Positions 39,980 through 64,000 of a stretch of DNA of 64,000 nt are shown piece after piece (within the stretch, counting starts at the first letter, position 1; each line of letters begins with the position of its first letter). Under the pieces are notes generated by a model that saw only the letters and a list, made by a program, of their open reading frames with translations, did no database searches and had not been told where the DNA came from. The stretch lies in contig JABXHW010000050.1 in NCBI GenBank assembly GCA_013373425.1, positions 25,916 through 89,915 on the forward strand. Reading direction: 5' to 3'. A program made the translations under genes and the position numbers. Source of the stretch: Flavobacteriia bacterium. GTDB lineage: Bacteria; Bacteroidota; Bacteroidia; Flavobacteriales; Schleiferiaceae.

Positions 39980-40018
39980 ATGAAACCCCGTTGGCGTAAT
40001 GCTGGCGGGGTTTTTTTG
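39980..40018 (+). terminator. Intrinsic terminator
   Basis: AACCCCGTTGGCGTAATGCTGGCGGGGTTTTTTT. Confidence 0.75.
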
Positions 40019-40028
40019 TGGGAAGGAG

Positions 40029-40105
40029 CGCAGAACGCAGAACGCAGAACGCAGAACGCAGAACGCAGAACGCAGAACGCAGGAGCGCAGGAACGCAGGA
40101 ATACA
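40029..40105. repeat. Heptamer tandem array (CGCAGAA): 7 perfect units plus degenerate tail
   Basis: Units at 40029, 40036, 40043, 40050, 40057, 40064, 40071, then cgcagga and a degenerate gcgcaggaacgcagg tail. Confidence 0.95.
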
Positions 40106-40135
40106 GGTGGCACGAACACGAAAGCACGCAGCTAC

Positions 40136-40238
40136 CAGTATTAAGTATCCAGTATCCAGTATTGATTCAGAACTAAAACACCCCTGAAGGTCAGCATACC
40201 CCAATCCGTGCTAAATTGTACCCAGTACCCAGTACCCA
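40136..40238 (+). repeat. Composite intergenic element copy 1: [NAGTATY]x4 (40136-40163), 54-nt core (40164-40217), [GTACCCA]x3 (40218-40238)
   Basis: Direct reading; same layout as 60741-60836 (minus) and 63850-64000. Confidence 0.9.
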
Positions 40239-40244
40239 TTTCAA

Positions 40245-41084
40245 TCACGGTATCCACTTAATATCATCAAAGTTCGGCTTGCGTTTTTCGAGGAACGCAT
40301 TACGTCCTTCCTTTGCTTCGTCTGTCATGTAGGCAAGGCGAGTAGCTTCACCAGCGAATACCTGTTGTCCAACCATTCCATCGTCGGTGAGGTTGAAGGC
40401 AAACTTGAGCATCTTGATAGAGGTAGGTGATTTCTCAAGAATCTCTTGAGCCCATTCGTATGCAGTATCCTCTAATTCGTCGTGCGGGATAGACGCATTG
40501 GCCATTCCCATAGCAACTGCGTCGTCTGCGCTGTAGTTTCTACCGAGGAAGAAGATTTCACGAGCTTTCTTTTGTCCGACCATCTTAGCGAGGTAAGCCG
40601 ATCCGTAACCGCCATCAAAGCTAGTTACATCGGCATCGGTTTGCTTGAAGATAGCGTGCTCCTTACTCGCCAAAGTGAGGTCGCACACCACGTGCAAACT
40701 GTGACCGCCACCTACAGCCCATCCAGGAACAACTGCGATGACAACCTTAGGCATAAAGCGAATCAATCGCTGCACCTCGAGGATGTTCAAGCGAGGCATT
40801 CCGTCGTCGTCTACATACCCTTGATGTCCGCGAGCATTCTGATCGCCACCAGAACAGAAGCTGTATACACCGTCCTTCGGACTAGGTCCTTCGGCACTGA
40901 ACAGAACAACACCGATGTTCGTATCTTCTCTAGCGTCGAGAAATGCTTGATACAATTCAGCTACCGTCTTGGGACGGAATGCGTTTCTCACGTGTGGTCG
41001 GTTGAAGGCAATACGCGCCACTTTACCCGACTTCTTATAGGTAATGTCTTCGAACTCTCTAACGGTCGTCCAATTCGCTTTCAT
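40245..41084 (-). CDS. menB: 1,4-dihydroxy-2-naphthoyl-CoA synthase
   Basis: YSFCSGGDQNARG; VPGWAVGGGHSLHVVCDLTLAS; FDGGYGSAYLAKMVGQKKAREIFFLGR. Confidence 0.95.
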   Translation of the reverse strand: MKANWTTVREFEDITYKKSGKVARIAFNRPHVRNAFRPKTVAELYQAFLDAREDTNIGVVLFSAEGPSPKDGVYSFCSGGDQNARGHQGYVDDDGMPRLNILEVQRLIRFMPKVVIAVVPGWAVGGGHSLHVVCDLTLASKEHAIFKQTDADVTSFDGGYGSAYLAKMVGQKKAREIFFLGRNYSADDAVAMGMANASIPHDELEDTAYEWAQEILEKSPTSIKMLKFAFNLTDDGMVGQQVFAGEATRLAYMTDEAKEGRNAFLEKRKPNFDDIKWIP

Positions 41085-59986: not shown

Positions 59987-60736
59987 ATGAGAACTCTTGC
60001 CATAATCCCCGCCCGTTACGCATCTACGCGCTTTCCGGGAAAACCATTGGTCGATTTAGTAGGTAAATCCATGATTCGTCGTGTGTATGAACGCGCGAGC
60101 ATGGGGTGTGATGAAGTTCTGGTGGCCACCGACGATAATCGAATATTAGAAGAAGTAGAGAGCTTCGGCGGAAATGTGGTAATGACATCAACCAATCATT
60201 CTACAGGAACAAATAGATGTTTAGAGGCCTATGAGATTTGGCGCATCAATGCTGGGGCTGATGTGGATGTGGTTATCAATGTTCAAGGCGATGAACCGAT
60301 GTTGAACCCCACATCACTTCGTACGCTTGTACACCCTTTCGTGAATCCTGATTGCGACATGTCTACTTTGGTGAAACCCGTGAAGAACGCGGAGGATCTG
60401 AAGAACCCGAACAATGTTTTCGTAACGATTAATCAGAACGGACAGGCTTTATATTTCAGTCGACACCCTATCCCATTCGTGCGTGGAGTTGAGATGGAGA
60501 ATTGGCTCTCTAAAGTTGATTTCTTCCAACATATCGGTCTCTACGCATTCCGACCTAAAACACTGCGTGACTTTGCCTCCATGGCCATGGGAGATCTTGA
60601 AAAAGCCGAATCACTAGAACAACTGCGCTGGCTAGAAGGCGGACATGAAATCTACTGCGGATTAGTACAGGAGGTATCGGTGAGTGTTGATACGCCAGAG
60701 GATGCGGAGACGGTGAGGGCGATGTTGGGGGAGTAG
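59987..60736 (+). CDS. kdsB: 3-deoxy-manno-octulosonate cytidylyltransferase
   Basis: IIPARYASTRFPGKPLVDLVGKSMIRRVYERA; VINVQGDEPML; QHIGLYAFRPKTL; SVDTPEDAETVRAML. Confidence 0.95.
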   Translation: MRTLAIIPARYASTRFPGKPLVDLVGKSMIRRVYERASMGCDEVLVATDDNRILEEVESFGGNVVMTSTNHSTGTNRCLEAYEIWRINAGADVDVVINVQGDEPMLNPTSLRTLVHPFVNPDCDMSTLVKPVKNAEDLKNPNNVFVTINQNGQALYFSRHPIPFVRGVEMENWLSKVDFFQHIGLYAFRPKTLRDFASMAMGDLEKAESLEQLRWLEGGHEIYCGLVQEVSVSVDTPEDAETVRAMLGE

Positions 60737-60740
60737 GGGA

Positions 60741-60836
60741 TTGGTACTGGGTACAACATTTCACAGCTAGGGGTAAGCTCATCTAGTGGGGAGAAGCTGT
60801 TCTGAATTAATACTGGATGCTGGATACTGGATACTT
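60741..60836 (-). repeat. Composite intergenic element copy 2 (minus): [NAGYATY]x4 (60836-60809), 54-nt core (60808-60755), GTACCCA-type heptamers (60754-60741)
   Basis: Minus reading aagtatc cagtatc cagcatc cagtatt, then core, then gtaccca gtaccaa. Confidence 0.9.
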
Positions 60837-60842
60837 GGGTTG

Positions 60843-60882
60843 CGTGCTTACGTGCATGCGTGCCCACGTGCCCGCGTTCTTC
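60843..60882. repeat. Octamer array O5 (CGTGNNNN), 5 units
   Basis: cgtgctta|cgtgcatg|cgtgccca|cgtgcccg|cgttcttc. Confidence 0.9.
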
Positions 60883-63000: not shown

Positions 63001-63043
63001 CGAGTACAAGGTACTAAGTACTAAGTACTCGGTACTGGGTTAC
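63001..63043. repeat. Heptamer array (NNNGTAC), 6 units
   Basis: cgagtac|aaggtac|taagtac|taagtac|tcggtac|tgggtta-c. Confidence 0.9.
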
Positions 63044-63639
63044 TAGTAAGGTCGAAATTCTATTGTCGATTTAAATTTCTGAATTTCATCGTAATCGTGA
63101 ATGCCAAGAATGTCGATTAGGTTGATGAAGTGGAGTACTTCAGATTCGTAATAGTGAATGAATAGATCTCCGGCCTGCGAAAGGTCCGAAGCACTTTTCA
63201 TCTGAAACATGAGGTGAATGGTTTCACCACTTTTCTATTTCAGATTGAAATAATTCTGTACGCCAATGGAATACTTGTGTGAATGACTACCATGCACAAC
63301 CTGTCCTACATAGTCATCCACTGTAATAGATAGATTAAGTATTTCAGAAGGATGAATGTATCTGCTCCCTATGGTTACTGAGTCTTTTTTAAGAACTAGA
63401 CTAGAGTTCAGTGTTCCATGTAGTTTCTCTGTAGCATAAAGTGACCTCACCCTTAGCCCTAATATAAAAGCCAACATGATTCCAATACCTAAGAGATGAT
63501 TGAGTCCAGGATGAGGAAAAAGTTTGAAATACCCAAGGAGCATAAGCAACAAGCATACGCCAATCACTACGACTAAAGCCTTGTCTTCTTGAGTAAGCTC
63601 TTTCTTCCTCTCGTAAATCTTTAACTCAATTTCTTGCAT
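63043..63639 (-). pseudogene. Hypothetical membrane protein interrupted by an in-frame TAG (63235-63237)
   Basis: Same-frame translation: ..HKYSIGVQNYFNLK*KSGETIHLMFQMKSASDLSQAGDLFIHYYESEVLHFINLIDILGIHDYDEIQKFKSTIEFRPY*; N-terminal 134-aa ORF plus 64 codons. Confidence 0.65.
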
Positions 63640-63645
63640 GGGATA

Positions 63646-63725
63646 GTGAGCTTGTAACCTGGCAACCTAGTGAGCTGGTGAGCTGGTGAGCTGGTGACGT
63701 GGTGACCTAGTGAGTTGGTGAAGTG
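63646..63725. repeat. Octamer array O8 (GTGANNTG-like), 10 units
   Basis: gtgagctt|gtaacctg|gcaaccta|gtgagctg x3|gtgacgtg|gtgaccta|gtgagttg|gtgaagtg. Confidence 0.92.
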
Positions 63726-63755
63726 GTATCTCTATCGAGAAACCTTTACACTGAA

Positions 63756-63849: not shown

Positions 63850-64000
63850 TAGTATTGAGTATCCAGTATTCAGTATCACTGTAAAACTTCCTCGCCTCTA
63901 AACAAGAGCTTACCTCAATCCGTGCTAGTTTGTACCCTGTACCCTGTACCCTGTACCCTGTACCCTGTACCCTGTACCCTGTACCCTGTACCCTGTACCC
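63850..64000 (+). repeat. Composite intergenic element copy 3: [NAGTATY]x4 (63850-63877), 54-nt core (63878-63931), [GTACCCT]x9+ (63932 to window end)
   Basis: Direct reading; array truncated by window end. Confidence 0.92.

Follow-up and report, generated by a model that had tools for sequence, protein, structure and literature searches.

The window, a 64-kb stretch from the metagenome-assembled genome (MAG) of a Flavobacteriia bacterium, carries three copies of a composite intergenic repeat, each made up of 28 nt of heptamers, a 54-nt core, and GTACCC[A/T] units. Copy 1, on the plus strand, begins right behind an intrinsic terminator (hairpin plus T7) of its left gene at 39984..40017, and the sister species have this terminator with no composite behind it. 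It opens with a G-rich octamer/heptamer array of GAACGCA / GGARCGCA units (module O, 40029..40107), a module identified by TRF that is also found ahead of many other copies. This is followed by a GCACG-type octamer stretch with the linker AGCTAC (module P, 40107..40135), recognized by eye in alignments across copies, and by four AGTATYN heptamers (module H, 40136..40163; TRF and pattern search). The 54-nt core occupies 40164..40217 (alignment A1; E = 5.6e-24 with the family model R1 described below), and three GTACCCA heptamers (module G, 40218..40238; TRF) end 6 nt from the called stop codon of the convergent menB (40245-41084). Copy 2 lies on the minus strand, with an O/P-like stretch of GCGTGCCCACGTGC repeats seen in the sequence and by TRF (60837..60882), four heptamers found by the same pattern search (60809..60836), and an alignable core (60755..60808; R1, E = 7.4e-23). 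Its module G, one GTACCCA and one GTACCAA unit (60741..60754), is separated by 4 nt from the TAG that ends kdsB (59987-60736, plus strand), as called. Copy 3, on the plus strand, has four heptamers (63850..63877; sequence and pattern search), a core of a divergent subtype, ACTGTAAAAC...GCCTC (63878..63931; alignment and R1, E = 6.2e-23), and a GTACCCT array of ~10 units delimited by TRF (63932..64000). The window covers positions 25916-89915 of contig C35, whose length is 89,915 nt. Because the contig itself ends at window base 64000, inside this array, the array has at least ~10 units.

The layout described in the first-pass annotation, four heptamers followed by 54 nt and a GTACCC[A/T] array, is borne out at all three loci. 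Aligned without gaps, the cores of copies 1 and 2 and those of copies 1 and 3 are identical at 34/54 positions, and those of copies 2 and 3 at 32/54. These values are far above the ~14/54 of shuffled cores, and 0 of 20,000 shuffles reached them. The four-heptamer pattern, with up to three mismatches allowed, gave 4 overlapping matches in the window, all at the three loci (shuffles, 0.00), and the GTACCCWGTACCM pattern gave 12 matches compared with 0.08 in shuffles. Other short tandem arrays at 63670-63727, 63004-63046, and 60841-60877 (GTGAGCTG octamers, GTACTAG heptamers, and TGCGTGCC octamers) belong to a wider set of 7-8-nt intergenic words of this genome. The window also encodes two large secreted proteins with T9SS sorting domains (TIGR04183), as fits a member of the Bacteroidota.

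A genome-wide family and its architecture

The MAG (G000) amounts to 3.09 Mb in 76 contigs, from which long arrays are missing. About a quarter of it (~0.84 Mb) was read as sequence, as was about a quarter of one same-genus genome (G002) and less of another (G001); gene calls are longest or simple ORFs and are not curated. A DNA search of the genome with copy 1 recovered ~22 full composites. The sequence-only model R1 (heptamers, 54-nt core, and GTACCCA), built from a 26-copy alignment, found 30 copies at E ≤ 3e-11 (best to 1e-26) that match most of the model, together with weaker partial ones, badly decayed copies being under-counted in a family collected by similarity. Doublets of GTACCCA and GGARCGCA occur 122 and 107 times genome-wide and those of reversed control patterns 0 times. 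Many contigs start or stop within a GTACCCA array, so the actual arrays are often longer than those assembled.

The full unit is longer than the boundaries first described. It runs from the left gene's intrinsic terminator through the GGARCGCA octamers, the GCACGTAA-like octamers, the AGTATYC heptamers (as a rule four), and the core to the GTACCCA heptamers, which end beside the right gene. In most copies both octamer modules precede the heptamers, and the GCACGTAA-like stretch carries one of the short linkers CCAGCT, AGCTAC, and AACCC. The composite has a consensus of ~120-250 bp, which can be written as [GGARCGCA]n, the GCACGTAA-like stretch, AGTATTG.AGTATCC.AGTATYC.AGTATT, the 54-nt core, and [GTACCCA]n, and there is no reading frame in it. 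The core is exactly 54 nt in 24/30 copies, the others having 50, 52, 52, 52, and 53 nt and one lacking a recognizable GTACCCA end; exactly four heptamers are present in ~21/30, with a range of 2-5. GTACCCA units number from 1 to at least 10 per copy across the 30, counts that were corrected by eye for two loci (L013 and L008). The variability claimed for the second array is thus confirmed, and the supposedly invariant units and spacing stand as the majority state, not as an absolute rule, as variant loci exist. The first-pass annotation had named two findings that would speak against a family, the lack of further copies and random unit numbers or core lengths; neither applies to these ~30 copies.

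Among the variant loci, heptamers lie 5 nt from GTACCCA at L220 and directly on it at L226, and the spacers between the two are ~26 nt at L225, 31 nt at L224, and 49 nt at L223. At L231 a 35-nt core adjoins a full copy, and at L229 the arrays are in reversed order. Octamer arrays without other modules stand behind some terminators, and modules are also found alone elsewhere. Judging by these variant and stand-alone arrays, each module recombines or decays on its own, and a spacing of 54 nt is the norm within a single subfamily, typical but not absolute. Another dispersed unit of greater length, GGTGCGCAGGAACGCAGGTCGGCAGGTGACGAAATATCACC...CAGCATGC...ACTCACTCCAAC, is present at L225 (G000:C47:20800-21700), with 2-3 repeats ahead of the heptamers, and represents a different core in a frame of the same kind.

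The left gene points at the element in 23/27 copies (p = 3e-4), a count made after correcting by eye those left genes that the simple ORF finder had miscalled; among the 23 are an SRP RNA gene (L044, by eye) and a tRNA gene (L004, the tRNA being confirmed by an Rfam-type search). Of 32 O arrays, 11 have a terminator T-run in the 60 nt upstream, and 1 has an A-run there. In the 0.84 Mb read, median distances to the left and right gene are 57 and 207 nt for module O, 157 and 97 nt for H, and 256 and 23 nt for G. Divergent intergenic regions are nearly avoided, with 1/29 O arrays. From the direction of the left genes, the T-runs, the distances, and the scarcity of divergent sites it follows that the unit lies, in one preferred orientation, between a terminator and the gene that comes next. 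By simple-ORF gene calls, 8/16 copies with both neighbors known lie between convergent genes, compared with 45/280 intergenic regions, and all 14/14 GTACCCA loci on the sampled contigs are intergenic. The stop codons that border GTACCCA arrays are TAG in 8/14 convergent genes versus 22% of long ORFs (p = 0.004, after removal of one doubly counted locus), as at window positions 60734-60736 and at L005 and L007, as if GTACTA/GTACCTA units had supplied the stops; this observation is not used here as a mechanism.

The modules differ in how they change. In the 23 four-unit copies, the last base is characteristic of each heptamer position (T, C, C/T, and T in turn), and unit 2 begins with G in 16 (p = 4e-6). 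Because these unit-specific bases are kept, the H array has descended as one 28-nt piece, an inherited 28-mer and not a free array, so that its constancy reflects shared ancestry and does not have to imply a constraint on spacing. The GTACCCA array slips, with CTACCCA units in L010, GTACCCT units throughout copy 3, and slippage variants also in L011. Mismatch to the consensus is 3.5% of positions in the heptamer words (scored against AGTAT) and roughly 30% in the core, for which a computed 39% was inflated by four rows one base off register. Pairwise core identity spans 33-87%, with a median of 57%, and ~30% of the core tree is internal. The length of the core is better kept than its sequence. 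Rates vary among the sites of the core (lnL rises from -1214.6 to -1194.6 with gamma under GTR+G, alpha 1.9), hinting at constraint, and its similarity is weakly correlated with that of the upstream modules (Mantel r = 0.14, p = 0.036).

Proposals that the unit acts as RNA found no backing. Covariation, which the first-pass annotation had put forward for examination, was not found; the aligned copies have 0 consensus pairs, single copies fold like shuffles (z-scores of -1.8 to +0.5), and Rfam holds no match to the composite. The absence of covariation and structure argues against an RNA element. No terminal inverted repeats were found, the consensus unit having just one internal 7-nt palindromic pair, and no target duplication was seen at site 1 (PPIase/menB), where divergence of the flanks blurs the precise junction. 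No transposase linked to the composite was found in the genome. Its only Y1 transposase is flanked by different palindromes (CATCGGGTGG.AACCCGATG) and not by the composite. This IS200/RAYT-like gene, at L218:1190-1460 (G000:C61, ~57 kb), has the palindromes CATCGGGTGGTAACCCGATG / CATCGGGTGGGAACCCGATG ahead of it and, with them, looks like a separate REP/RAYT system. Palindromes of the same type (CGTCGGGT..AACCCGACG) also adjoin some composite copies (L016, L026, L100, and L231). Reverse transcriptase was set aside as the copying machinery, the genome having one type VI retron-like pair of reverse transcriptase and HTH protein with no link to the composite seen (L219:1366-2525; G000:C44, ~19 kb; RT_VI 5.6e-57, HTH_VI 1.4e-30).

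Relatives and described repeat systems

Related Bacteroidota, which the first-pass annotation had proposed to scan, yielded no further copies. R1 found 0 copies in 2 same-genus genomes (G001 and G002), 88 genomes of the family, and 397 of the order, and the composite had no match in plasmids, phages, or viral contigs. At the PPIase/menB site of copy 1, both G002 and G001 keep the convergent pair, the terminator, and a short spacer, and the genome studied here has ~200 bp extra. The genes at the L016 site are ~345 nt apart here versus 50 nt in G002, and two further array-bearing convergent sites measure 239 versus 0 nt and 210 versus 56 nt. Given the lack of copies in the relatives and these empty or shorter sites, the spread of the family is, as far as comparison of these genomes indicates, recent relative to the split from the G001 and G002 species.

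The relatives have repeats of their own. The tandem-array load per kb of intergenic DNA is 1.58 in G000, 1.10 in G002, and 0.43 in G001. At the L007 and L044 sites, G002 carries different repeats, and its composites, located between genes, are built on AGAGGGTT and GGACTTAT octamers. On its contig 1 (L143, L147, L162, L164, L170, and L171), its own composites include AGAGGGTT octamers, GGACTYAT octamers, and GTTCCGACTG units, with a hairpin core, AAGGAGGAATCCCGAGAGGCGAAGCCGATTCGGG, followed in places by GCCTATC-like heptamers. A grammar common to the species, with G-rich arrays near the 3' end and C-rich ones toward the following gene, did not hold up in general: near-3' arrays are G-rich and C-rich at a ratio of 41:17 in G000 and 13:15 in G002, and far-half arrays in G002 are C-rich by 18:1. 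In a different genus of the same family, G045 (L070, L071, and L072) has AGTATTC arrays that are interspersed with AGTTTGGGGT-type units and lack the core; one of these arrays is directly behind a terminator. The single match in a wider collection of genome contigs came from the Chloroflexi MAG HyVt-449, with similar words and another spacer; it was rejected as a family member and taken to be an array of independent origin. Neighboring AAGTATC, CACGTAT, GTACCCT, and CTCACCCA arrays lie there (DRKV01000131.1, L073:60-180). The same heptamer words seem to recur in distant bacteria.

The view that no described element has this structure proved right in detail: two heptamer words bracketing a fixed 54-nt core and preceded by two octamer words were not found in the literature searched. 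The general kind, however, has been described, in BOX, STAR, and heptamer arrays. BOX of Streptococcus pneumoniae (boxA-boxBn-boxC) is likewise modular and intergenic, combines a constant frame with a variable tandem array, is enriched between convergent genes, and is mostly confined to a species and its nearest relatives (PMC3049150). BOX is bounded by terminal inverted repeats and forms a strong stem-loop RNA, neither of which was found in the composite; the composite has an architecture of its own, and a relation in sequence is not expected. STAR of Staphylococcus aureus is also intergenic and species-biased, with direct-repeat motifs, recurring spacers of 40-44 bp, and a copy number that varies per locus (PMC3532100). 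In STAR one 14-bp GC-rich motif alternates with spacers, whereas the composite has a single 54-nt core enclosed by two different heptamer arrays and preceded by octamer arrays, and by eye the STAR motif T(G/A/T)TGTTG(G/T)GGCCC(C/A) is in no aligned copy of the composite. The intergenic heptamer repeats TAACTGA (PMC4679880) and GGGAATC/GGGGAYT (PMC4692102) share with the composite modules their 7-nt tandem arrays of variable number, and their sporadic distribution includes the Bacteroidetes; (TGGGTAC)n likewise has the G3N4 form, which could in principle fold into G-quadruplexes. They are single-word arrays, and the composite has several words in fixed order and a nonrepetitive core, so that the definition of a heptamer simple sequence repeat fits the GTACCCA modules and does not describe the whole unit. 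REP/RAYT systems are similar in being dispersed intergenic repeats, and the genome has one Y1 transposase. REPs, however, are hairpins beside their own transposase; the composite has no hairpins, and the Y1 gene is beside other palindromes, on which grounds this assignment was rejected.

Origin of the repeat

The most likely explanation is that the family is a non-autonomous interspersed repeat, of one kind with BOX and STAR, that spread recently and sits in the gap beyond terminators. Whole units of ~200 bp have been gained at new intergenic sites relative to the sister species, oriented and often just behind a terminator. The fuller account, to which we give a somewhat better than even chance, is of a young, species-restricted repeat whose units are gained between genes and copied in trans, whose outer arrays slip, and which has no required function. 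Copying in trans would be carried out by a cellular or mobile recombination or transposition activity, and the repeat would survive chiefly where it is least harmful, behind terminators and between convergent genes. This position matches that of BOX, RUP, and SPRITE in the pneumococcus, whose enrichment between convergent genes has been interpreted as marking parasites that are tolerated in positions behind genes (PMC3049150). In the outer GTACCCA and GGARCGCA arrays the number of units varies, and variant units have spread within single arrays, as expected from replication slippage; the core drifts freely in sequence and rarely in length. The unit would lengthen the 3' UTRs of its convergent neighbors and may be a weak insulator. 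Several observations run against this account. There is no near-identical young pair of cores (maximum 87%, median 57%), unlike in a currently active transposon, and heptamer words at 3.5% mismatch beside a core at roughly 30% are not accounted for by the neutral decay of a single burst. That no terminal inverted repeats, target duplication, or linked transposase were found, that modules occur alone or with other cores, and that the core rates are uneven, which hints at constraint, also count against it. As for the dispersed family under spacing constraint that was originally suggested, it is indeed dispersed, with a mostly fixed layout and a core that drifts at kept length; the spacing is not absolute, and descent accounts for the constant 28-mer.

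The better conservation of the words than of the core, which drifts at fixed length, would be expected if the unit were a selected transcription insulator, its C-rich, G-poor, and unstructured H-core-G part serving as a Rho-loading (rut-like) backup behind the intrinsic terminator. On the strand of the left gene, that part averages 26.8 C and 15.1 G per 96 nt (the core, 16.3 C and 8.0 G), H and G have a YC dinucleotide at 7-nt intervals, no structure is conserved, and the orientation behind terminators and the avoidance of divergent regions (1/29 O arrays) agree. The rut reading, however, draws on composition and position, nearly half of the copies with both neighbors known face a gene reading away, and both same-genus genomes lack the element at the orthologous site tested, where it is therefore not needed. 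Moreover, BOX has the same convergent-gene bias, taken there as a sign of parasitism (PMC3049150), and we consider a selected insulator unlikely. Words ~tenfold better conserved than the core, and a core length kept in 24/30 copies, would also suit a putative binding site for a sequence-specific DNA protein in nucleoid organization or regulation, which would recognize the words AGTATYC and GTACCCA while the core spaces them. This we hold to be quite improbable, as unit numbers vary, some loci have no core, relatives lack the element, and the few flanking genes identified have no obvious common theme.

It has also to be asked whether any unit was copied at all. Arrays might arise in place by slippage from favored 7-8-nt words, the layout being a by-product of where slippage is tolerated, and indeed arrays of other words are common between genes in G002 (AGAGGGTT and GGACTTAT), AAGTATC and GTACCCT arrays lie close together in the Chloroflexi MAG, which is unrelated, and single modules occur alone. 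Independent slippage cannot give a nonrepetitive 54-nt core that is homologous at ~30 places (R1, E to 1e-26) or unit-specific heptamers. On this evidence, the idea is largely refuted for core-bearing copies and, as a general account, very improbable; stand-alone arrays may have arisen in this way. A broader proposal, which we regard as doubtful but worth stating, is that the composite represents a mobile noncoding element without hairpins or terminal inverted repeats, built of ordered 7- and 8-nt modules and inserting directionally behind terminators, and that the sister species would have a system of the same kind with entirely different words (in G002, AGAGGGTT, GGACTTAT, and a GTTCCGACTG core), sometimes at the same sites.

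If the repeat is, as we favor, a recently spread interspersed family, this genome offers natural material for its study. The ~30 natural copies, the empty sister sites, and the strict order of modules make the building and copying of composite repeats such as BOX, STAR, and the heptamer arrays testable. GTACCCA arrays stop assembly, which explains many of the breaks in this MAG. They also carry a warning for annotation, in that stop codons and 3' UTRs adjoining such arrays may be recent.
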